Assembly: GCA_030679145.1 (NCBI GenBank) | Contig: JAUXTU010000049.1 | Location: forward strand, 1 to 32,371 | DNA from: Bacteroidota bacterium | GTDB taxonomy: Bacteria > Bacteroidota > Ignavibacteria > UBA10030 > UBA8401 | Length of the DNA: 32,371 nucleotides | Reading direction: 5' to 3' | In this document: piece by piece, positions 2,204-32,371 of the stretch | Layout: every line of letters starts with the position of its first letter | Position numbering within the stretch: position 1 is the stretch's first letter | The notes under the pieces: model-generated | Told to the model about the DNA's origin: nothing | Database searches by the model: none | Seen by the model: the letters and a program-made list of their open reading frames with translations, nothing else | Program-made: the position numbers and the translations under genes

Positions 2204-4285
2204 TTACCGAACCATGACTATCTTTCGAACCATAACGGCACCATCAACAACTAATCTACAAACGTAAACTCCGGAACCAACCGAAACACCTTCATCATTT
2301 TCGCCGTTCCAATGTACTATATGCTCTCCCGCATCGAGCTTTCCTTTTTCAATACTCTTAATTTTTTGACCAAGCGTATTATACATTGTCAATGAAATAT
2401 CCGACATCAGCGGTAATTCAAAGGAAATCATTGTGGAAGAATTGAACGGATTGGGATAGTTTTGCTTAAGTGATACTGAAGCTGGCTGAAGCTGAACATT
2501 CACAACAGTTGAATATTTCCAAACACCATCATTATCAATTTGTTTGAGTTTGTAGGAATAATTACCCGGAGTAACATTACGATCTATGAAAACATAAGAA
2601 TGCGGAATATTTGACGAACCATACCCTTCAACAAAACCGGACGGAACGGATTCAAACATTGTTGAACCTCCTTTTCGTCGCTCAATCTGAAAACCGTAAT
2701 TATTTATTTCTGTCGCCGTTGTCCATTCCAGTCTTATAGTATTGTTACTTGTCGATGTTCCGACAAATGAAATTAACTCAACCGGCAAAAGTGTAGCATC
2801 ATAAAGATATAACACTTCATCTTCATTAATAAACGGTGAAGTAAATGAACGCACCGCGCCCCCTGCAACAGTATTGCCAGATACTGTCTCTCCAGTAAGG
2901 GTATTGAACCATTCAACTGTCAGTTGAGTCGGTCCACCGGTCAGGTTAACATCCACGTTAGATGCATCACGGAGAAAGACTATATATTCACCCCCTGATG
3001 TAGAAGGATTTGCAAGACAGAAGAAAGGGTAAGTCACAAGATCACCACGCGGAACCATTGCAGTCAGATTCATTCTTTGAGCAAATGATCGAATATATCC
3101 AAGATTCTTGCGAAGATTCAGCATCCTTGGAATTGAGTATATATCCAATGAATCAAAGTCTGACGCACCACAACCGTATGCTTTTCCGTCAAAAACATCC
3201 ATATAAATTGGATTCATTCCTCTCATAAAAGCCTTCCATGCCCAGCTACGATCGCCGCCAACTCCCCATAAATGATCGGTATCAAGGATGATTACTTTCG
3301 CTCCGGTAGCGGAAGGGATATCGTCCATGTAGCCACCGTCAGAGTTCGGAGAAATCCAATCTGCATCCGACGCGAAAAGAATGCTGTTTGCGTAACCATT
3401 TCCGGTTAAATCAGGCCATTGAGCAGTCATGCCGACGGGATGCTGTTTTGGTTTCCTCGATTCATATGCGTGAATGGTATCGATCATCAAATATTGCCAG
3501 GCTGTTGATGAGGAAGATGAACCGGTATATGCTTCATTGCAAATTTCATACAGTACATTATCAAGATCATTGACCTCATCAATAACCTTTTTTACATATG
3601 CTAATTGTTTTGCAGTGACAGCAGGATTATATAGTGTATAAAGAGTTCGACCATCTCCAATCGGATATGCATCACCATTGATATCGCTAATGTTATTACT
3701 TACATGAAAAGGATGCCCTTTATACGGATCCAATCCTCCTCTTGCACTATTAACGTATACTGTTTGACCGCTCCATCCATTGAACAGCATGATCGAAACG
3801 TATATGCCCCTATCACCGGCTTGTATGATACGGCTTCTTAGAGTATCAAAATAAGTTTGATTAAATTGATCCAGGTCGAATTTTGGTTTGCCGTCGAGAG
3901 CAATACCTGGTCCAGTTCGGGCAAAAGGACTTGGTGAAAACCAATAGTTTGAATCGTATGATTCAGCACTCCATCGCGATTGTTCCCACGTCCACATTCT
4001 AAAAAAATTGTGGTTGAGAGTTGTTAGAGTATCGAGGTACTCCTGATAATTAAATTGTGGAGGAGGATCACTACCGCCATTATCAACAAGTGTTGACCAT
4101 GTATGCGAACCGGTTAACAGGATCGCCTCCCCATTATCATCTGTAAAATATCGGGGATTAGTCGGATGAACTCTCAAAACACCATTCAGTTGTGCATCAC
4201 TAATTGATACAAAAAATATAAATGACATGATTTCCCATGTCATTTTTTGATGAAATATTTTTGGCAAAATCCAGCTATTCATCAC
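2204..4285 (-). CDS. T9SS-secreted glycosidase-like protein (DUF4038/GH140-like)
   Basis: This protein has 693 residues. An N-terminal hydrophobic stretch (IMSFIFFVSISDAQ) looks like a signal peptide. Residues about 35-400 resemble DUF4038/apiosidase-like TIM barrels: HPTNPRYFTDD, LTGSHTWST, FFRMWTWEQSRW, VSIMLFNGWS, N250-E251 in YEICNEA (a likely acid/base pair if clan GH-A) and LDTDHLWGVGGDR. A beta domain follows (VEWFNTLTGETVSG ... EVLYLYDA), then an FnIII-like domain (LEWTTATEINNYGFQIERR) and a T9SS sorting domain (NYPNPFNSSTMISFELP ... SGVYVCRLV). The reading start is GTG 4285, but ATG 4282 is four bases after a GAGG and may be the real start. It is a paralogue of the giant protein and lacks its FnIII/CBM stalk. 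It probably trims or binds the polysaccharide outside the cell; activity is not proven. Confidence 0.88.
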   Translation of the reverse strand: MMNSWILPKIFHQKMTWEIMSFIFFVSISDAQLNGVLRVHPTNPRYFTDDNGEAILLTGSHTWSTLVDNGGSDPPPQFNYQEYLDTLTTLNHNFFRMWTWEQSRWSAESYDSNYWFSPSPFARTGPGIALDGKPKFDLDQFNQTYFDTLRSRIIQAGDRGIYVSIMLFNGWSGQTVYVNSARGGLDPYKGHPFHVSNNISDINGDAYPIGDGRTLYTLYNPAVTAKQLAYVKKVIDEVNDLDNVLYEICNEAYTGSSSSSTAWQYLMIDTIHAYESRKPKQHPVGMTAQWPDLTGNGYANSILFASDADWISPNSDGGYMDDIPSATGAKVIILDTDHLWGVGGDRSWAWKAFMRGMNPIYMDVFDGKAYGCGASDFDSLDIYSIPRMLNLRKNLGYIRSFAQRMNLTAMVPRGDLVTYPFFCLANPSTSGGEYIVFLRDASNVDVNLTGGPTQLTVEWFNTLTGETVSGNTVAGGAVRSFTSPFINEDEVLYLYDATLLPVELISFVGTSTSNNTIRLEWTTATEINNYGFQIERRKGGSTMFESVPSGFVEGYGSSNIPHSYVFIDRNVTPGNYSYKLKQIDNDGVWKYSTVVNVQLQPASVSLKQNYPNPFNSSTMISFELPLMSDISLTMYNTLGQKIKSIEKGKLDAGEHIVHWNGENDEGVSVGSGVYVCRLVVDGAVMVRKIVMVR

Positions 4286-4288
4286 ACC

Positions 4289-23185: not shown

Positions 23186-23977
23186 TTAAGTTGCCCGATT
23201 CATGACAAAACCAAGAATTTGATGTTGTTCAAGCTGTGTTACAATTTTATCGATATCTTCTTGTTTCGAAACACCTGCTGTGACAACAATAATTACACCA
23301 TCTAGTTGACTCATAAAGAGGGGGGGAACAGTAATGTCCCGCATCGATGGAAGATCAACTATAATGGAATCATACGATTCAAGCAATGAATAGATAATAT
23401 TTCGAAATTCAGGAAGCTGTTCCAACAACAACCCTAAATTTGATTCGTTAATTTCATCTGTTTTTTCATTCTTAGCATTCAACAATATGTCGTTAGCAGG
23501 ATTTGAAGTTACATTGCCGGCGGGTAAAACTGAAAGATTTTTAAATTTTGTTTCAGTAATATAAATTGAAGATTCATGGAGTGCATCCAATAAACCCGGT
23601 GATAAAGGCATTCCAAAAACCTTATGAAGCTGTGGTCTTCCGATATTGAGGTCAATTAATACCGTGCTTCGCTCGCGCGCTAATGCAAGTGAAACACCTA
23701 GATTAGCCGCGACAAGAGTTTTACCATCTTTCGGACTTGCACTTGTTACTCCGATGACCATTTTCCCCTCAGCATTACCCGAGGGAAGAATGGAATAATT
23801 AAAGCTATTATAAAATTTTGGCGATACAAACTGTTCGTCCACAAATCCACTGCTTTTGTCGTTAACAAACACTTTCTTTTTAAGACGAACAAGACTGTGA
23901 ATTTTTATGTCACCTTCATTATTGTCATTCTCTTGCTTAACTTCATTATCCGAAGATGGAATATCGTCTACCTGCAT
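23186..23977 (-). CDS. BY-kinase-like (CpsD/CapB-type) ATPase without a tyrosine tail
   Basis: This protein has 263 residues. After a hydrophilic N-terminus of about 70 residues comes a P-loop of the Wzc/CapB kind: VTSASPKDGKTLVAANLG with K86 (Walker A), VLIDLNIGRPQLHKVFG (Walker A', D109) and DSIIVDLPSMRD (Walker B, D208). Family members phosphorylate themselves on a C-terminal tyrosine cluster, but this protein ends ...GFVMNRAT with no tyrosine there. So it may be an ATPase partner of the GumC-like Wzz protein rather than a classic autokinase. The start is ATG 23977 with AGGA upstream. It follows the Wzz-like gene by about 50 bases. Confidence 0.85.
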   Translation of the reverse strand: MQVDDIPSSDNEVKQENDNNEGDIKIHSLVRLKKKVFVNDKSSGFVDEQFVSPKFYNSFNYSILPSGNAEGKMVIGVTSASPKDGKTLVAANLGVSLALARERSTVLIDLNIGRPQLHKVFGMPLSPGLLDALHESSIYITETKFKNLSVLPAGNVTSNPANDILLNAKNEKTDEINESNLGLLLEQLPEFRNIIYSLLESYDSIIVDLPSMRDITVPPLFMSQLDGVIIVVTAGVSKQEDIDKIVTQLEQHQILGFVMNRAT

Positions 23978-24028: not shown

Positions 24029-25369
24029 TCAATCATTTTTCCATTCCGGCAATAGTGCAATAATAGGTTTTTTGTATACTTGAATCTCTGCAGTGGTCCG
24101 GATCGTAGTATCAAGAAGTTCTGCACCCATTACGGAGAATAATCCAACAATAATTCCTACAATAAACCCACCAAGGATGATTAACATACGACTTGGCTTT
24201 GATGGAAAAAGAGGCAATAAAGGCGGATCCATGACTGTATATTGATTCTCAGAATCTTGACCGATGGAAAGAGAAATCTGAGCTTCCTCAAGTTTCAGTT
24301 TCATCTCATTGTAAAGCCGTTCGTAGATAGTATAGTTCGATTCTTTATCTCGATCTTCCTGCTGTACCACTGATGAATTCATTATCTCTTCAATTGTTTG
24401 TGAGCGGGATGTTTGTATATCATTAATCTGAGACTTGAATTTCGAAATCTCTGAACCTAACGCAACCCGAATTCTCTCGAGAAGTTCAAGAATTCTACTC
24501 TCAACTTTCACTACTTCCGGGTGTTTCGGTGTGTATTTTGATGAAACTTCATCATACATACTTAGTTGTGATCGAAGTTCAATTGAATACGGAACATCTG
24601 ACCGTTGCAATTCAAATAATGACTGACGTGCCAGCTTTGAACCAATCAATGAGGGGAGTGTTTTAACTTGAGCAAGATTCCCTTCATATTGTTTAATTGT
24701 TATTCCAATGTCATGGATTTGTTGATCGAATTGTTCCACTCGTGTATATAAAAAAGTATTTGCACCCGGAGTACCCTTAGCCCGCTGCTTCAGCAATGAC
24801 ACCATATTCTTTTGGCTATTTTCTAACTTTTGTGAATATTCATCAAGTTTTTTTTGGTAAAAATCTACCGTAAGTTCATTCTTCTTATTTTTTGTAGTGC
24901 TTCTTGTTTGGATAAAAATATCTGCTAAAATTGTTGCACCACGTTGAGCCTGAACTGGGTTGTCTGATGCATATGTAATGCTGAATGATTCTCGTGGCTG
25001 AACTTTTGTTTGAATATTGTTTCTGACTTTTACCATTAACACTCGAAATTCTGCTTCATTCGTAATATTTTTTGCAAGATCCAAACTGTCAATCAACTGG
25101 CTTATCGTACGCTGGCTAAAAATAATATCATCAAACGATCTCAATGGATCATCATCCCTCGATGTCATCGCATTCGCTAAACTCGCCAATGGATTTTGTA
25201 CTTCAGTCCGTTGCACTAAAATTCTAATCGACGATTCATACATTCTTGGAAGCATGTAAGCGCCTGTGATCGAAATAATCGTCATAATAATTGGAGGCAG
25301 AAATAAAAAAAATTTCCGACGGCGAATGATTGCCGCAATATCTTTGATTTTTACCTGAGCTTTACTCAC
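24029..25369 (-). CDS. Wzz/GumC-type polysaccharide co-polymerase (chain-length determinant)
   Basis: This 446-residue inner-membrane protein is the first gene of the long minus-strand operon. A first helix (FFLFLPPIIMTIISITGAY) follows a short cytoplasmic end, then a long, partly coiled-coil periplasmic part (about residues 100-370), a Pro-rich stretch (PPLLPLFPSKPSR) and a second helix (MLIILGGFIVGIIVGLF). This is the layout of Wzz/GumC, which sets chain length with Wzy. The kinase domain sits in a separate gene (23186-23977). The start is GTG 25369, with AAAGGT 9 bases upstream. The sigma54-type promoter at 25420-25435 would give an untranslated leader of about 40 bases. Confidence 0.92.
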   Translation of the reverse strand: MSKAQVKIKDIAAIIRRRKFFLFLPPIIMTIISITGAYMLPRMYESSIRILVQRTEVQNPLASLANAMTSRDDDPLRSFDDIIFSQRTISQLIDSLDLAKNITNEAEFRVLMVKVRNNIQTKVQPRESFSITYASDNPVQAQRGATILADIFIQTRSTTKNKKNELTVDFYQKKLDEYSQKLENSQKNMVSLLKQRAKGTPGANTFLYTRVEQFDQQIHDIGITIKQYEGNLAQVKTLPSLIGSKLARQSLFELQRSDVPYSIELRSQLSMYDEVSSKYTPKHPEVVKVESRILELLERIRVALGSEISKFKSQINDIQTSRSQTIEEIMNSSVVQQEDRDKESNYTIYERLYNEMKLKLEEAQISLSIGQDSENQYTVMDPPLLPLFPSKPSRMLIILGGFIVGIIVGLFSVMGAELLDTTIRTTAEIQVYKKPIIALLPEWKND

Positions 25370-25419: not shown

Positions 25420-25435
25420 CGCAATTCATGTGCCA
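25420..25435 (-). promoter_or_regulatory. Sigma54 (-24/-12) promoter for the long minus-strand EPS operon
   Basis: Reading the minus strand gives TGGCACATGAATTGCG. It matches the consensus TGGCACRNNNNTTGCW at all positions except the last, with GG and GC separated by ten bases. Transcription would begin near 25410, about 40 bases before the GTG start of the Wzz-like gene at 25369. Confidence 0.85.
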
Positions 25436-25757
25436 TCGTAAGTTGGCTTTATTAATAATTTATTGCACAATATATAAAGAAATTTCAATCATTTTACATT
25501 AAAACTGCATACAATTAAGAGATAAACACCTAAGTGGGAAAAACTTACACTATAGCATGCTTCAACAAAAAAAAGTGAGAACATATTACCAATAACTTAC
25601 AAACCAAATGCTTTTCGGCATTAATACTAAAGATTGATCTATACCAAAAAAGATCATAGTATTTTCTGACAACTATTGCTATTATTTGTTGATTGTATCA
25701 TAGATTAACTATTAACTTTCTTTTTAATTAAACAGTTGGTTCTTCGTACATCAAATC

Positions 25758-25773
25758 TGGCATATTTGTTGCC
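25758..25773 (+). promoter_or_regulatory. Sigma54 (-24/-12) promoter for the plus-strand export operon
   Basis: The plus strand reads TGGCATATTTGTTGCC, which matches TGGCAYRNNNNTTGC with the ten-base GG-GC spacing. Transcription would begin near 25784, some 95-135 bases before the OPX start. This element and the one at 25420-25435 point away from each other. Confidence 0.75.
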
Positions 25774-25916
25774 TCTAATGATATAGAACTATTAGAAATA
25801 ATGATTGTATATCATAACACTTTTTAAAAAATAGCGCAAATATGCAAACTTCAAGAAGAACTCAAGACTGATTACGTATGAATGATTGTCTTGGACAATT
25901 TGTTAAAAGGTGTAGT

Positions 25917-26642
25917 GTGAAAAAAATACTTGTTGTGGTAATTAATGCTTTAAAAGAATCGATCATTATTGGTGGTATTATTCTTTCCGGATGCTCGACA
26001 AATCCGATTGTTAATGATAACATCCGTTCTAATTCAGAGCTTGATACTCTCAATCAGCAAATTATAAATGTACAGTCACCATCGTACATATTCCGACAGG
26101 GAGATCAACTTCGTATTACGATTCGCGGTTATCCCGAATTCGATACAACAATGGTCGTCAATGATGTCGGGACTATCTCTATGAGATATATTGGTGATTT
26201 GATCGTAGCGGGAATAACACGCGCACAATTGAGCGAAGATATTGTGACAAAACTTTCAGATTATATTAAAACAGAAATTTTTCCATCAATCGTCGTGCTT
26301 AATGCGTTAACTCAAAAAGTTGCAGTGTTAGGAGCGGTTGGACGCCAAGAAAATTATTCAATTCAGTCTGATGTGACTGTACTCCAAATCCTTGCAATGG
26401 CAGGAGGAGCAACAGCTGAATCGGACCTTCAACATATTAAAATTTTTCGCAATGGCGATTCAGGATATTTCGAAGAAATTGATATTACAAAATATATTTC
26501 AAATGGGAATATCAGTGAAATGCCATTGGTAAAGCCGGGAGATACTGTATACGTCCCGAGGGAAGAGAATATTATTCGTGAACTTTCCAGCTTTTTTAGA
26601 GATACTATTTTTATTTTTACTCTTTTTACTATTTCAAACTGA
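25917..26642 (+). CDS. Polysaccharide export outer-membrane lipoprotein (OPX/Wza-like)
   Basis: The protein has a lipoprotein signal peptide ending in LSGC (lipobox), then a poly-export domain (YIFRQGDQLRITIRGYPEF) and an SLBB-type segment (QKVAVLGAVGRQENYSI, LVKPGDTVYVPR). It ends with a hydrophobic stretch (DTIFIFTLFTISN), the likely outer-membrane helix of OPX proteins. It forms the exit channel for the polymer together with the Wzz-like protein. I prefer GTG 25917 (241 residues), because AAAAGG lies six bases upstream and MKKIL begins the signal peptide. An in-frame ATG at 25878 would add 13 residues but has a weak upstream site. Confidence 0.9.
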   Translation: MKKILVVVINALKESIIIGGIILSGCSTNPIVNDNIRSNSELDTLNQQIINVQSPSYIFRQGDQLRITIRGYPEFDTTMVVNDVGTISMRYIGDLIVAGITRAQLSEDIVTKLSDYIKTEIFPSIVVLNALTQKVAVLGAVGRQENYSIQSDVTVLQILAMAGGATAESDLQHIKIFRNGDSGYFEEIDITKYISNGNISEMPLVKPGDTVYVPREENIIRELSSFFRDTIFIFTLFTISN

Positions 26643-27577
26643 TGCGTTTTTTCACTTTATCGTTCGGGATGAACAAAAAAATTTTAATATCAGCTTCTTT
26701 ATTTTTTATGGTCACGAACTGTCTTGTAAGCCAAACAGTCTTCGATTTCATTGGTCGACCAGTTAATGGTTCTGCAAGAATAGCTTCATTAGGTGGTGCA
26801 GCGGTCGGCGAGGGATACGATGTGAATTCAATGTATTGGAATCCGGCAACGCTCAGTTTTCTTCGACACTCATCTGTTACTGTTTCGTCTATTTTAGGAC
26901 GGAATGGTGAAAGTTTTAATAATACTTTATCCCTTCCGCCGTTATATGTAGATAATTATCAAGTGGTTGCAGCCGGATTTGCTGGCAGCTATTTCGGAAA
27001 AAATTGGTCTCAACCATATTTTGCATATAACGGTATTGATATGGGATATTCCATTAAACTCCATCCTACGCTCAGTGTTGGTGTATTAACAAATATACGT
27101 TACGGAAATAAATCTTCATCAGGCTTATGGGCAACATCGGGTTCGCTTGGCGCTTTTTACGCTCCATCATCAGGTATAAGTTATGGAATTGTTTATACCG
27201 GAATTGGATCTGGTGTTTTGTACAGGTACAACGGTTATGCCGGAACTTTAAAATATCAACGCAATCTTAATCAGAGTATTCATATTGGATCTTCATTCAG
27301 ATTCCCTTCATTGTACAGACTACCGTACATCATTATAACAATGGAAAGCCAGAAATTTATCAATACATCCGGAATCACTTATCGCGCGGGATTTGAAACA
27401 TATCCTGCACAAAATTTATCATTGAGACTCGGCATTATATCAAGTTCAATTGCTACTGCGGGATCGTTTGGATTGGGGTATCATATCGGAAATTTACATC
27501 TCGATTACGCCTATTTCCCTGATAGAGAAGCAAATCGTTACCATCAAATTTCAATTTCATATCAATTGGGAACTTGA
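26642..27577 (+). CDS. PorV/PorQ-like outer-membrane beta-barrel protein
   Basis: This protein has 311 residues. A signal peptide (MNKKILISASLFFMVTNCLVSQ) is followed by SARIASLGGAAVGEG and NSMYWNPATLSFL, hallmarks of the PorV/PorQ (FadL-like) family of FCB bacteria. The remainder is rich in alternating beta strands and ends in ISISYQLGT. The first ATG (26642) shares a base with the OPX stop (TGATG); ATG 26669 (residue 10) fits the signal peptide better. PorV acts in T9SS by bringing cargo to the translocon or anchoring it. With two T9SS cargo genes in this locus, a role in their secretion or in polymer export is a reasonable inference. Confidence 0.8.
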   Translation: MRFFTLSFGMNKKILISASLFFMVTNCLVSQTVFDFIGRPVNGSARIASLGGAAVGEGYDVNSMYWNPATLSFLRHSSVTVSSILGRNGESFNNTLSLPPLYVDNYQVVAAGFAGSYFGKNWSQPYFAYNGIDMGYSIKLHPTLSVGVLTNIRYGNKSSSGLWATSGSLGAFYAPSSGISYGIVYTGIGSGVLYRYNGYAGTLKYQRNLNQSIHIGSSFRFPSLYRLPYIIITMESQKFINTSGITYRAGFETYPAQNLSLRLGIISSSIATAGSFGLGYHIGNLHLDYAYFPDREANRYHQISISYQLGT

Positions 27578-28440
27578 TTTGCGAATGCAATTTATCATAT
27601 CCAAAATTTTCAATGTCAATATCGTATGATCGTTTCATGAATAAATCTTTTGAAATATCCCATAACATGGCAATGCAAGAGGTCATCCGTACTGCCGAAA
27701 AAGTTGCAGTAAGCGATCTCAGTGTTGTCATCATTGGTGAACATGGAACCGGAAAAGAATGGCTCGCACGAGCTATTCATCGATTGAGTAAACGGGCAAA
27801 CGGACCATTTTATCCTATTGACTGTGCGGCACTTCCTCCGGAAGAATTGGAACGCGAACTATTCGGTTATGAGATTCTTACAAGAGAAGGTGTTACAATT
27901 CAACGCGGTGCATTCGAAGAAGCCGGTGGCGGCATATTACTTTTAAATGAAATAGGTTCTTTGCCGCTTGCAATTCAGTTGAAGATTTCCCGTGCACTTG
28001 AGTATAAAACAATCTATCGCATCGGGAATGATCAACCAATCCACATTGACACCCGGGTAATAGCAACGCTGAGCCAACATGCAGACATCCTTCTGCAAAA
28101 CGGTTTATTGCAAAAGGATATGTTTTACCGCATTAGTCCATTCGTTATTGAATTACCACCGCTGAGGGATCGACGCGAAGACATTCCATTTTTAATTGAA
28201 AAATTTTTGAGAGCACTTAAAGACGATCATCAGGGAAGCGTCGAAGGAGTAACACCTGAAGCTTTACATTTATTCCTTGAAAATGATTGGCCGGGCAACG
28301 TACGCAGATTGAAAAATGCGATCGAATATGCTTTTGTCATGTGTACATCTCAATGGATACAGCCGAAAGATTTACCCATCTACTTACAATCAAACCACTT
28401 CAATGGCAATTCATCGATTAAATTAAGTAACAAAAAGTGA
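27574..28440 (+). CDS. Degenerate sigma54-activator-like AAA+ protein (no GAFTGA, no DNA-binding domain)
   Basis: It aligns with the central domain of bacterial enhancer-binding proteins: Walker A GEHGTGKE (K61), ERELFGYE, GGILLLNEIG (Walker B), KDMFYRISPFVIELPPLRDRRED with the arginine finger, and ENDWPGNVRRLKNAIEYAF (sensor II). Three features are abnormal. The sigma54-contacting GAFTGA loop is replaced by ILTREG (about residues 101-106) and is one residue shorter. The Walker B acidic pair is Asn-Glu (N125-E126) instead of Asp-Glu. No receiver or other sensory domain precedes it, and no Fis-type HTH follows: it stops about 35 residues after sensor II. The TTG 27574 start overlaps the previous stop (TTGA); ATG 27613 or 27637 are alternatives. 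A regulatory AAA+ role for this locus is inferred. Confidence 0.85.
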   Translation: MICECNLSYPKFSMSISYDRFMNKSFEISHNMAMQEVIRTAEKVAVSDLSVVIIGEHGTGKEWLARAIHRLSKRANGPFYPIDCAALPPEELERELFGYEILTREGVTIQRGAFEEAGGGILLLNEIGSLPLAIQLKISRALEYKTIYRIGNDQPIHIDTRVIATLSQHADILLQNGLLQKDMFYRISPFVIELPPLRDRREDIPFLIEKFLRALKDDHQGSVEGVTPEALHLFLENDWPGNVRRLKNAIEYAFVMCTSQWIQPKDLPIYLQSNHFNGNSSIKLSNKK

Positions 28441-28500: not shown

Positions 28501-31500
28501 CTATTTCAACAGCGACATTTTTTTGACATTTGTAAAACGTTTGGAAGGATTATCACTTGAAACCGCTTCAAAACGATAGAAATATACGCCAGAGGCGTAT
28601 CCTCCTTTGGAGGACAATCCACTTGCAGTCCCCCCATTCCAAACTACCTCTCCAAATCCAGCATCCATTTCTTTGTCGATCAATCGTGATACGGATTGCC
28701 CCAAACTATTAAAAACCTCAAGACTGACTCGACTCTTCGCCGGTAAAGAATATCGTATCGTTGTGAATGGATTAAACGGATTAGGGAAGTTCTGTGAAAG
28801 TTCATAATTCTCCGGAATATATAACTTTTGGAGACTGAATTTTTTAGATGTGTTAATTGTCATTTCAGAGGCTTCTGAAAATGAACGCATAGTAACTTGA
28901 ATGGAATCATCACCGATCGCGGAAAGCCGAGTTATTGCCATTTTGAACAATCCTGAAGACAAAAGTTGATTACTTAAAGGAATGGATGTAGAAGCAATTA
29001 TTACCACAGCGGTTCCAAAATTATTATCAATATTTTTAAGCAACAACAATCCATTATTACTGTCCGTTAAAATATCTTCAACCCTGGTTTTAGACGGATC
29101 ATACTTAACAATCATTTCAACAGTTTGAGATTCTTCGAAAGTAGGTAATTGTACTTTGAATATTTGATTTTTTAATGAGGTGACTGTTGAAAGACTTACT
29201 ATTCTAATATCCCTATCATTATCAATGGTGTTGTCAAAGATCGTTCTTTCGTTAAACTCATCAACAAAGTGAGTCTGACTCCATTTCCATAAAGATTGAA
29301 AAACTTCAAAATCTTTGGAATTTATACGTCCATCCTTTTTTAATATGAGATTAGGTAATGTCCCCTCTACCGGACCAATGTCTGCAATTCCTAAGTCGTT
29401 TCTTTTCCAAGCATCCACAAAAAAAGCAATGTCCTGTCCGTCGATTTTTCCATTATTTGAAAAATCAACACGAACATTTTTATCCTTGGGTACAGTTTTC
29501 GCCGGAGGTGGTGAAGTTTGTTTGTAGACTAAGCCGATATTATCAAGCGAGAATGTCACATTAGATGCAAGTGCTGTAATATACAGTGAAACAAATGGAA
29601 CATTGGCTAACTGGCTCATTAAGATTGATTTATTTTGCCATGTATTTGCCGGGACAGATATACTAACTGGTGTAAAAATATTCCCTCCCGATGGATTTTG
29701 ACAACTGACTTTTAATGTTACACCAGACGAACCGCCATGTACTGCAAAATCGAGACTTTGGAAAGGTGTCGGACTTATATTCACAAATGATCCCCAGGTT
29801 CCTTGCGAGAATTGAAGCACAGCCCAAGGGCTGTGAACAATTCGTGCAGAAGTAGATCCTTGAAATACCGGATTGGTGCTTGCATAATTGCGAGTAACAC
29901 TCCACGACCTAATATCATTCCAAGGTGAAGAAAGCGCTCCTTCCTGATAAATATAGCTCACGGTTGGAGTTACCGGAGCCATCGTGGTAAACCTCCAGTT
30001 GGAGGAAAAAGAGCTTTTCCCTACTGAGTTTTGAGATCTCACTCGCCAAAAATATGTTGTATTGGTATTCAACGATACAATGGCTCGAGATGTATCAATC
30101 AATGTTGAATCATTTACAAATGACGTTGCAAACAATGAATCAGTTGATATTTGGACATGATAGGATGTTGCATTTGAAGCAGTATTCCATTTTAACGTCT
30201 GCGATGTAGATAGATTTAGACCATTATTTAAAGGTGATAATAATGTTGGAACCGTAGGAATCGTTCCCGTAGTAAAGCTCCAAACCGTACTATACGCACT
30301 GGTTCCGCCTACTCCTGCCGCTCTAACGCGCCAGAAATAATTGGCAGAGTATAACAGAGATGAACTAACTTTGTTCGTATCAGTCAAGATAGAATCTTCC
30401 ATTACTATCGTTGTAAATGAAGAATCCTGTGATACTTGAATTCGATATGAAGAAGCATTTAGAGATTTATTCCAGCGGAACGTAAATACAATCATCTGAT
30501 TTGTTGCACCATTCGTAGGCGAAACAAGTTGAGGCGCCATTGGAGCAGGGGCAATAGTAGTTAATCGACGTATTGATGAAAAGGAACTTGATCCACCCGA
30601 GTTTGAAGAACTTACTCGCCAAAAATATTTTGACAAATTATTGAGCGGGGAGATTTGTAAAGTCGTATCAGTGATTGAGTTTTGATCATGTATCAAATTT
30701 GTAAATATGGAATCTTGAGATAATTGCAAACGATATGACGTTGCATTAGAAACACTATACCATGAAAACTGGATGTTAACCGGTTGACCTGTTGCGTTAT
30801 CATTGGGTGATGAAAGCAACGGTGCGTTTGGCGGAGTAATCGAGGTTGTATATGTCCATACTGTTGAGAATGGGCTTTGTCCGGCAATATTTTTTGCACC
30901 AACACGCCAATAATATTTCGTGAACGATTGGAATGATGATACCGTCCGAGTCGTATCGGTAAGCGTTGAATCATTCAAAACTATTGTTGCAAATGTAGAA
31001 TCAGTAGCAATCTGTAATCGATATTCCGTAGCTCCTTGCGAGACATTCCACCGAAATGTTAATGGCATGGTTTGGTCAACGCTGTTATTTGCGGGTAATT
31101 GAAGTTGTGGAGTTATTGGCGGAGCCACTATGGTTGTAAATTTTCTTATTGAAGAAAAAGCACTTTTGCCAACAGTGTTCCGTGCCGACATGCGCCAAAA
31201 ATAATTTGAGCCATTATTCAATCCTGAGATTGTTCGTGAAGTATCGGTAATCGTTGAATCATTAAGGAATGTTGTTGTAAATAGAGAATCTGCTGATACC
31301 TGTAATTGATATGAGACGGCACCGGATGAAGAATTCCAAATGAGAGCTAATGATGTCGGTTGATTGATAGAATTATTGAAAGGAGATAAAAGATTTGGAG
31401 CAGATGGAGCAGTTGGTCCGCTCGGTTTTAATACAAGGGAGATATTATCGAGATAAAAAGTAACATTTGATCCACTAGCGGTAAACTGAATCGAAATGAA

Positions 31501-32371
31501 TGGCGCTGATGCTATCTGACTCATTGGAATGGATTTGATCAACCATGAGTTTGCAGGTACCGCAAAACTTACCGGCGTGAAAATAGAACCTCCGGAAGCA
31601 TTCAAACAATTGACCTTCAATGTAAAACCGGTTGCCCCACCATTGATTGCAAAATCGAGACTCTGGTAAAGAGCTGGATCTATATTCACAAATGATCCCC
31701 AATTACCTTGACTGAACTGGAGTGATGCCCAAGAACTATGAACAATACGTGCAGATGTAGAACTCTGATACACATTGCTCGTATTTGCATAATTACGAGT
31801 AACACTCCATGATCGGATATCATTCCATGGAGATGTCAGAACGTTTTCTGTATAGATAATATTGGTTTGTGGAGCCGGGGGTGATGCAACGGTTACTGTC
31901 GTCGTTAATATTATTGTGCCATTGGAATTGATCAGTCTAAGAGAAAACATCGTTGTTGTTGTAACAACGACATTTATTGAACCATTGAAAGGAACAACTC
32001 CTATACCTTGATCTATATCAGCATACGTTGCGCCGACCGATGACCAATTAAGTGTTACAATTCCTCCGCCTGAAGGTAAAGATGTGATATTACTTTGAAA
32101 TGTACCAGATGGAATAGGACCATTTCCAACGGAACTAAGATATAACACAACGTCGCCAGAAAACGGGGCAGTGAATGTTTGATTAGTACTTCCTGCTACA
32201 GTTCCTGAAAAAGTGGTCATTCCAGTTTCGGGATTAAACCATTCAACATTAAGATTTCCTGATGTAGCAGACAAGTCAACAACAATGGCACTTGACGAAG
32301 AAGGATCATACACCAAATACTCCGCTCCGGTAGCAGAAGAATTTGCTAAACAATATGTTGTAGACGAAAGA
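28501..32371 (-). CDS. Giant modular T9SS-secreted glycosidase-like protein, C-terminal part (starts at 1391 across the window ends)
   Basis: In order this part holds: the end of a beta-rich domain also found after the catalytic domain of the 2204-4285 protein (VEWFNPETG, SGTVAGS, VVLYL); an Ig-like segment; a CBM-like jelly-roll module (PWNDIRSWSVTRNYA ... FYLDNISLV); five fibronectin type III repeats of about 95 residues, each with a LLSP/W..S..A..Y.LQ.S.DS.F core and a YFWRV...N..G.S.FS..W.FTT end; a second copy of the CBM-like module; two dockerin-like calcium loops (FSNNGKIDGQD, KKDGRINSKD); a cohesin-like segment (VKYDPSKTRVEDI, SSGLFKMAITRL); and a T9SS sorting domain (NFPNPFNPFTTIRYSLP ... 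SGVYFYRF). It is therefore probably exported by T9SS and held at the cell surface or released. Internal Met codons would make this look like a 1,271-residue gene starting at 32316, but that start is an artefact of the window edge. Confidence 0.9.
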   Translation of the reverse strand, partial: LSSTTYCLANSSATGAEYLVYDPSSSSAIVVDLSATSGNLNVEWFNPETGMTTFSGTVAGSTNQTFTAPFSGDVVLYLSSVGNGPIPSGTFQSNITSLPSGGGIVTLNWSSVGATYADIDQGIGVVPFNGSINVVVTTTTMFSLRLINSNGTIILTTTVTVASPPAPQTNIIYTENVLTSPWNDIRSWSVTRNYANTSNVYQSSTSARIVHSSWASLQFSQGNWGSFVNIDPALYQSLDFAINGGATGFTLKVNCLNASGGSIFTPVSFAVPANSWLIKSIPMSQIASAPFISIQFTASGSNVTFYLDNISLVLKPSGPTAPSAPNLLSPFNNSINQPTSLALIWNSSSGAVSYQLQVSADSLFTTTFLNDSTITDTSRTISGLNNGSNYFWRMSARNTVGKSAFSSIRKFTTIVAPPITPQLQLPANNSVDQTMPLTFRWNVSQGATEYRLQIATDSTFATIVLNDSTLTDTTRTVSSFQSFTKYYWRVGAKNIAGQSPFSTVWTYTTSITPPNAPLLSSPNDNATGQPVNIQFSWYSVSNATSYRLQLSQDSIFTNLIHDQNSITDTTLQISPLNNLSKYFWRVSSSNSGGSSSFSSIRRLTTIAPAPMAPQLVSPTNGATNQMIVFTFRWNKSLNASSYRIQVSQDSSFTTIVMEDSILTDTNKVSSSLLYSANYFWRVRAAGVGGTSAYSTVWSFTTGTIPTVPTLLSPLNNGLNLSTSQTLKWNTASNATSYHVQISTDSLFATSFVNDSTLIDTSRAIVSLNTNTTYFWRVRSQNSVGKSSFSSNWRFTTMAPVTPTVSYIYQEGALSSPWNDIRSWSVTRNYASTNPVFQGSTSARIVHSPWAVLQFSQGTWGSFVNISPTPFQSLDFAVHGGSSGVTLKVSCQNPSGGNIFTPVSISVPANTWQNKSILMSQLANVPFVSLYITALASNVTFSLDNIGLVYKQTSPPPAKTVPKDKNVRVDFSNNGKIDGQDIAFFVDAWKRNDLGIADIGPVEGTLPNLILKKDGRINSKDFEVFQSLWKWSQTHFVDEFNERTIFDNTIDNDRDIRIVSLSTVTSLKNQIFKVQLPTFEESQTVEMIVKYDPSKTRVEDILTDSNNGLLLLKNIDNNFGTAVVIIASTSIPLSNQLLSSGLFKMAITRLSAIGDDSIQVTMRSFSEASEMTINTSKKFSLQKLYIPENYELSQNFPNPFNPFTTIRYSLPAKSRVSLEVFNSLGQSVSRLIDKEMDAGFGEVVWNGGTASGLSSKGGYASGVYFYRFEAVSSDNPSKRFTNVKKMSLLK
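29518..29957 (-). repeat. CBM-like module, copy 2 (C-terminal)
   Basis: It encodes about 145 residues nearly parallel to those at 31424-31866. Both contain SPWNDIRSWSVTRNYA, TSARIVHS.WA.LQFSQG, WGSFVNI, SGG.IFTPVS and DNI. The DNA also matches over long stretches, so this is a recent internal duplication within one gene. Likely a carbohydrate-binding jelly roll; ligand unknown. Confidence 0.8.
29985..31424 (-). repeat. Five tandem FnIII-type repeats
   Basis: There are five repeats of about 285-290 bases in the giant secreted protein. Each starts near a LLSP..N or LSSP.DN motif and ends in SIRKFTT, VWTYTT, SIRRLTT, VWSFTT or NWRFTT. They are diverged at the DNA level, so they are unlikely to be recombining freely. 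They probably act as a stalk separating the two CBM-like modules. Confidence 0.85.
31424..31866 (-). repeat. CBM-like module, copy 1 (N-terminal)
   Basis: This is the partner of 29518-29957. The two modules bracket the array of five FnIII repeats, giving a symmetrical CBM-FnIII(5)-CBM design. Boundaries are approximate. Confidence 0.8.
32231..32371. repeat. Terminal direct repeat, copy 2 (identical to 1-141)
   Basis: This is an exact copy of 1-141. Removing one copy and joining the ends gives a molecule of about 32,230 bases and keeps the reading frame of the gene that crosses the junction. Confidence 0.97.

Follow-up and report, generated by a model that had tools for sequence, protein, structure and literature searches.

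Introduction

FleT from Rhodobacter sphaeroides is the described sigma54 activator (bEBP) that comes closest in build to the protein considered here. According to the accessible part of PMC7175178, it is an AAA+ bEBP without receiver or DNA-binding domain, and the accessible parts of PMC7277832 and PMC3162934 place its gene in a sigma54-driven operon with structural genes, in a cell that also contains a full bEBP. The gene family reported here resembles FleT in its domain composition, and the gene that we started from resembles it in its putative sigma54-driven operon with structural genes and in the presence of a full bEBP in the genome. As far as PMC3162934 is accessible, FleT is placed in a GAFTGA-filtered set; the family reported here has neither GAFTGA nor the Walker B pair Asp-Glu (DE). 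FleT further differs by being a co-activator, unlike the inhibitor proposed below, and by having no HTH, while two relatives of our protein keep one.

TyrR, DhaR, HupR, VpsR and YplP act through a DNA-binding HTH. Like the family considered here, they are sigma54-activator homologues with a broken GAFTGA motif (PMC3162934, in the part available), and some of these GAFTGA-defective proteins of the TyrR/VpsR type are described there as sigma70-dependent. In contrast, the present family is mostly without HTH and entirely without Walker B DE.

Interaction or co-dependence between paralogous bEBPs, as would apply to the candidate pair discussed below, is described for HrpR/HrpS, the VnfA paralogues and RedR1/RedR2 (PMC9542535, accessible part). 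However, these are co-dependent or mutually tuning activators and not ATPase-dead subunits, and the same text describes interactions between bEBP homologues as rarely reported, with activators making up the named pairs. For a bEBP family that has lost GAFTGA together with Walker B and the HTH, no description was found in the accessible portions of the open-licence literature, PMC12054792 included, in line with an earlier note on this DNA, made from the sequence alone, which knew of no family with this combination.

Here we analysed a stretch of 32,371 nucleotides from a Bacteroidota bacterium of the class Ignavibacteria, referred to as the window, which carries a gene of this kind, termed pseudo-EBP in the following. 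Another close counterpart belongs to the same locus: a canonical family of "EPS activators" (e.g. L182, L184 and L199) has the sister AAA+ domain, with the motifs intact in the aligned rows and a Fis HTH in the two members scanned with Pfam.

Results

The pseudo-EBP gene and its locus

The pseudo-EBP gene is the third of its operon, after the genes for an OPX protein and a PorV-like protein, and an exact putative sigma54 site lies upstream, so that the operon position and sigma54-like promoter described in the earlier note could be reproduced. The genes of the locus and the motifs within pseudo-EBP are as follows:

23186-23977: tyrosine-autokinase-like gene, next after the Wzz-like gene in the divergent operon
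24029..25369, minus strand: Wzz-like chain-length determinant, gene 1 of the divergent operon (TIGR03007 and TIGR03018, below cut-offs)
25878..26642, plus strand: OPX polysaccharide export protein, operon gene 1 (Pfam domains Poly_export and SLBB)
26642..27577, plus strand: PorV/PorQ-like outer-membrane protein, operon gene 2 (NF033709 at 45 bits with a cut-off of 90, and synteny)
27637..28440, plus strand: pseudo-EBP gene, AAA+ domain and lid, without receiver, HTH or GAFTGA and with Walker B NE (ATG 27613 is an alternative start)
27736..27759, plus strand: Walker A GEHGTGKE, intact
27874..27891, plus strand: L1 loop ILTREG replacing GAFTGA, with a one-residue deletion common to all 16 family members
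27946..27951, plus strand: Walker B residues Asn-Glu (LLLNE; DE in active EBPs)

Beyond the wzz and kinase genes lies a polysaccharide cluster with an O-antigen ligase domain, a flippase, glycosyltransferases and a pyruvyl transferase. For the Wzz, kinase and OPX proteins the best-scoring models were those of the XrtA/PEP-CTERM system, all below their cut-offs; an exosortase was not matched among the window proteins scanned with Pfam.

The pseudo-EBP open reading frame covers 27574-28440 on the plus strand and yields 288 aa if counted from its TTG. This TTG, from which the earlier note had counted, is doubtful as a start, since it overlaps the stop of the preceding gene, and ATG 27613 or 27637 is likelier. 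The protein matches PF00158 at 154 bits and the EBP lid PF25601 at 85 bits, confirming its identity as a sigma54-activator AAA+ domain. The Pfam scan gave neither receiver domain nor HTH, and an HTH that could have been missed downstream in the window was not found either, with 11 residues remaining past the lid match. The earlier reading of the motifs holds for the loss of GAFTGA from L1, for Walker B NE instead of DE, and for the intact Walker A and sensor II (WPGNVR). Its intact arginine finger stood only in part: the arginine-finger residues of PspF are R162 and R168 (PMC4132715, in the part accessible), and while the equivalent of R168 is indeed Arg, that of R162 is Gln, with R162/D164 and R168 mapped onto the FRED..YR stretch by our own reading. 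In addition, the sensor I Asn is absent, and Asp takes the place of the "glutamate switch" Asn (PspF N64).

An AlphaFold2 model based on a seven-row alignment reached a pLDDT of 77 and a pTM of 0.73, with low confidence for the N-terminal 7 and the C-terminal 15 residues. Its top matches in the PDB are bEBPs (NtrX, FleQ, FlrC, NtrC1 and PspF), with TM values of 0.81/0.85 against FleQ, and in the structural comparison with known bEBPs it fits the AAA+ folds of FleQ, NtrC1 and PspF. Because the model matches bEBP AAA+ domains in this way, the ring-forming fold is probably kept.

Members and synteny of the family

A profile of four homologues, run over the 98 genomes of the order and followed by inspection of the PorV-like neighbourhoods in the 27 locus genomes, gave 15 members; the 16th (G063), whose gene had been masked by a longer overlapping frame, came from an all-frame recheck of the loci. 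The family consequently comprises the window copy and 15 homologues at the same place beside OPX and PorV-like genes, all from genomes that are related to that of the window and belong to its order (Ignavibacteria), the named carriers being Ignavibacteriae, Ignavibacteria, Ignavibacteriales and one Bacteroidetes. The gene lies after the PorV-like gene in 16/16 members, and OPX precedes the PorV-like gene in 15 of these loci, the remaining contig (G064) beginning within the PorV-like gene. A WecA-like gene, labelled by PF00953 in L099 and by phmmer to the L099 protein for the others, is located immediately 3' in 12/16 loci, making OPX/PorV-like/pseudo-EBP/WecA-like the usual order. The exceptions are the window and G089, where no WecA-like gene comes immediately after (in G089 it lies at a distance of 3.8 kb), and G049 and G046, whose contigs stop short.

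At least nine of the 27 locus genomes have no pseudo-EBP gene at that place. The PorV-like gene is followed directly by the WecA-like gene in G008, G010, G016, G021, G033, G047 and the second G064 locus, and neither pseudo-EBP nor WecA-like gene occurs within the stretch read after the PorV-like gene in G030, G035 and G043; presence was not scorable in G057 (contig edge) and G096. G064 has two PorV-like loci (L151 and L101), one with and one without pseudo-EBP.

A profile search over 391 genomes of the class had 14 members on its list with scores from 342 bits upwards; the contig-end-cut G046 scored 258 bits, and ordinary activators reached up to 275 bits. Since this search scored only six candidates in most genomes, and since the G063 member was absent from its list as well as from the order-wide profile list, the family may extend beyond the members counted here. 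Outside the order, no pseudo-EBP relative came up in an initial scan of 84,980 species genomes. A second scan gave 33 loci, of which six hold family members, 20 carry a GAFTGA-like motif by pattern and seven are without the pattern (L084, L088, L091, L094, L095, L096 and L098); with the family profile these seven scored 114-237 bits vs 258-388 bits for members, and L096 sits among unrelated genes.

Loss of motifs and selection across the family

Neither GAFTGA nor Walker B DE occurs in any of the 16 members, where the Walker B pair reads NE, EN, HD, HD, ND, DQ, NE, SG, EN, EN, DK, EN, EN, DN, DN and DM. The Walker A Lys is kept in 14 members and replaced by Arg in two, with the full GxxGxGK present in nine; the switch Asn is replaced throughout, by Asp in 15 members and by Glu in one. 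The equivalent of R162 is found in 2/16 members and that of R168 in 11/16, and the EBP lid and WPGN region are kept. Among the 13 members scanned for it, a Fis HTH was found in two (G064 and G080) and no HTH in the window copy and 10 further members; the scan left out G027 (near copy of G037), G063 (9 residues past the domain) and G046 (cut by the contig end). Judged by these features of their sequences, pseudo-EBPs are a pseudo-enzyme branch of the bEBPs and not themselves activators.

In four congeneric pairs, dN/dS of pseudo-EBP amounts to 0.166, 0.118, 0.174 and 0.153 (NG86, first 25 aligned codons omitted; dS 0.12 in one pair and 0.88-1.0 in three), and the gene is under purifying selection in all four. 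Its dN/dS is the highest of five compared genes in three pairs, i.e. selection is looser than on the neighbours, and the lowest of four genes in the pair G049/G089. A single decayed copy, which the earlier note had named as one way for its reading to fail, can be ruled out because none of the 15 same-place homologues keeps GAFTGA or Walker B DE and because of the purifying dN/dS.

The canonical activator family

Maximum-likelihood analysis of AAA+ domains placed the pseudo-EBPs in a single clade (100/100), to which the canonical family, with its own support of 100/96, is joined by a branch supported at 97/90; the tree has 64 rows, 11 of them pseudo-EBPs, nine more long-branch rows (four pseudo, five canonical) having been dropped and canonical rows having been chosen partly for resemblance to the pseudo-EBP profile. 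Quick trees agree on this joint branch, with 88 in a tree of 73 rows (75 minus two duplicates) and 89 in one of 74 rows containing all 16 pseudo-EBPs, where the pseudo clade has a support of 100; several pseudo-EBP branches are long in the quick trees. In all 18 aligned members of the canonical family, Walker A and Walker B are intact, GAFTGA is present (reading EAFTGA in two) and the C-terminus is Fis-like; HTH_8 was matched in both members scanned with Pfam. Mostly they carry an N-terminal receiver-like domain, which in one scanned member reached 23 bits, below the cut-off. For the genome of the window, the motif table covers eight of 13 canonical EBPs.

With a profile of 12 canonical members, 27 of the 98 genomes score 460 bits or higher and are set apart from the next match at 423 bits. 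The canonical family is present in 25/27 genomes with the PorV-like gene vs 2/71 without it (Fisher p 8.6e-19, with species not independent), and counting by genus gives 17/1/1/36 (p 4.6e-12). As it occurs at similar frequency in locus genomes with pseudo-EBP (15/16) and in those where none was found (10/11), it marks the locus and not pseudo-EBP as such. G049 is the pseudo-EBP genome in which the profile detected no canonical member. In seven of the 25 genomes the canonical gene lies on the same contig, 6-26 kb from the locus, and rpoN is present in all 16 pseudo-EBP genomes.

The canonical member in the genome of the window is L199 (G000:C53, 3145-4155), a protein of 336 aa without receiver domain. 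It reads EAFTGA, as does its homologue in G089 (L104, 14708-15958), and its stop overlaps the start of a WecA-like gene, the kind that follows pseudo-EBP in 12/16 loci. The earlier proposal of mixed hexamers with a true activator, or of an anti-activator, has thereby gained a candidate partner in a sister family that co-occurs with the locus. In L185, L189 and L194-L198 the genes next to the canonical activator cluster with a histidine kinase of the PAS type and a response regulator of the receiver/LuxR type, domains that were scanned with Pfam in L197 only; such a pair is a possible signal input to the canonical activator.

The divergent promoter region

Between the two operons we noted three elements:

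25421-25435, minus strand: sigma54-like -24/-12 site TGGCACATGAATTGC upstream of the divergent wzz operon, exact consensus match
25534..25550, no strand: candidate activator-binding palindrome GTGGGAAAAACTTACAC, 10/12 positions of GTGTAA-N5-TTACAC
25758-25772, plus strand: sigma54-like -24/-12 site TGGCATATTTGTTGC upstream of the OPX operon, exact consensus match

TGGCATATTTGTTGC and TGGCACATGAATTGC are the only exact matches to TGGCAYN5TTGC in the window. With one mismatch allowed, the whole window has seven matches vs 3.9 expected, which is not significant (12/100 shuffles were as high), and shuffles of the divergent region gave p values of 0.02 and 0.025 for the two sites. Among the 24 loci scored, sites with at least 10/11 sigma54 positions face wzz in 11 and OPX in four; roughly half of the loci, whether or not they carry pseudo-EBP, have no such site. 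L102 and L135, outside these 24, have one 11-position site each. Since several sites occur in genomes without pseudo-EBP, sigma54 control is independent of its presence.

A first dyad count over the divergent regions, from which six near-duplicate regions were omitted, recovered nothing beyond the sigma54 core and a marginal TGTG..CACA. Extension of the dyad led to GTGT-N9-ACAC, which is exact in 8/26 divergent regions (two congeners), compared to a mean of 0.12 and a maximum of 1 in shuffles. The consensus GTGTAA-N5-TTACAC was derived from these very regions, and the p values calculated for it are therefore not independent. Over the whole window, 15 palindromes with up to three mismatches vs 14.6 expected correspond to chance level, and the window copy taken alone is weak. 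The recurrent palindrome is a plausible candidate for the activator site.

Discussion

Among eukaryotic kinases, the tuning of active paralogues by pseudo-enzymes is well known. We propose, with a confidence that we would place about midway between doubt and acceptance, that pseudo-EBP is an inactive paralogue of the sigma54 activator of its locus, which joins this activator and most likely damps transcription of the polysaccharide operons. Both divergent sigma54 promoters would be fired by the canonical activator, here the candidate C53 EBP, and once the operon is switched on, its third gene would be expressed and pseudo-EBP would enter the activator's ring. Because such a subunit would add neither a sigma54 loop nor hydrolysis nor an anchor on DNA to the ring, activation would most likely be lowered, and because it is encoded within the operon under regulation, it would feed back negatively and limit how much polysaccharide is made and exported.

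The behaviour of PspF offers an analogy. As reported in the accessible part of PMC4132715, single-chain rings in which wild-type subunits and the L1 mutant T86A alternate fail to sustain transcription efficiently, the reason being that two adjacent intact L1 loops are required, and rings alternating with the Walker B mutant E108Q support transcription, best on pre-opened DNA. By analogy, a subunit without L1 motif and Walker B should poison the ring when entering in number. Counting against this reading, loss of the R162 equivalent in 14/16 members and of the Walker A Lys in two could weaken ring assembly, and the heteromeric pairs FleQ/FleT and HrpR/HrpS are, in the accessible descriptions, co-activators. 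Also speaking against it are the occurrence of the canonical family at loci irrespective of pseudo-EBP, the missing canonical match in G049, the lack of sigma54-like sites with at least 10/11 positions at roughly half of the loci, and the dN/dS of pseudo-EBP, which exceeds that of the other genes compared in three of the pairs. More tentatively, and with rather more doubt than conviction, pseudo-EBPs may constitute the first dedicated pseudo-bEBP family, selected as a poison subunit in the hexamer of its sister activator and providing feedback on a sigma54 exopolysaccharide switch.

The position of the gene would also suit a role in export or assembly, e.g. in the cytoplasm as a nucleotide sensor or scaffold working with Wzz/kinase or WecA-like proteins, given that it lies after the PorV-like gene in 16/16 loci, with OPX before in 15 and the WecA-like gene directly next in 12, that the HTH is absent in most members and that Walker A is altered in some. 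However, pseudo-EBPs are sister to the activator family of the locus and keep the EBP lid and WPGN region, and at least nine locus genomes are without them, so that we regard such a role as unlikely. Alternatively, the inactive subunit could join the activator ring in the manner of FleT, as a co-activator that is needed for full activity or alters promoter choice. This would fit the similar layout, since FleT is produced from an operon activated by FleQ and sigma54 and then forms a heteromer with FleQ (PMC7277832, accessible part), and FleT is named as the sole known bEBP without regulatory and DNA-binding domains (PMC7175178, accessible part). It is difficult to reconcile with the loss of the L1 motif in 16/16 members if the need of PspF for two adjacent intact L1 loops (PMC4132715, accessible part) applies, and at least 9/27 locus genomes manage without the gene; co-activation is therefore improbable in our view, if still deserving of attention.

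Outside any activator ring, pseudo-EBP might be a stand-alone regulator of sigma70 promoters or of another protein, as are TyrR, DhaR and VpsR without intact GAFTGA, of which VpsR controls polysaccharide genes (PMC3162934, accessible part). A DNA-binding domain would be required for this; HTHs are kept in two family members, yet the scan found none in the window protein or in 10 other members, and we consider this reading quite improbable. That the family consists of decaying, functionless activator genes, as freely differing catalytic residues and several long branches could suggest, is hardly credible, since all 16 members have an open frame at the shared syntenic position, with one frame truncated where its contig ends, and since dN/dS is close to 0.15 in the four pairs.

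If the proposed damping by pseudo-EBP is true, blocking by a disabled paralogue would be a little-known mode of gene-switch control. With a selected dead bEBP paralogue and a candidate partner at hand, it becomes testable how many dead subunits are tolerated per natural sigma54 activator ring, and further whether bacteria exploit dead ring subunits as feedback. The analysis additionally supplies a predicted activator, a promoter architecture and a candidate operator for an exopolysaccharide system of a little-studied order.

Two further groups of genes in the window should be mentioned. Convergent with pseudo-EBP, a gene at 28501-32316 (minus strand) encodes a large fibronectin type III protein with an FlgD-like C-terminal stretch (below cut-off); proteins with phmmer similarity to it, which may reflect shared domains only, adjoin the locus in many related genomes, and some similar proteins near the canonical activator have a GH18 glycosidase domain (L104, 6143-8299). 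Inside the polysaccharide cluster, the gene at 2207-4288 (minus strand) encodes a DUF6298 protein whose tail matches the type IX secretion sorting model TIGR04183 above its cut-off, and a second DUF6298 gene is located at 3-1400.
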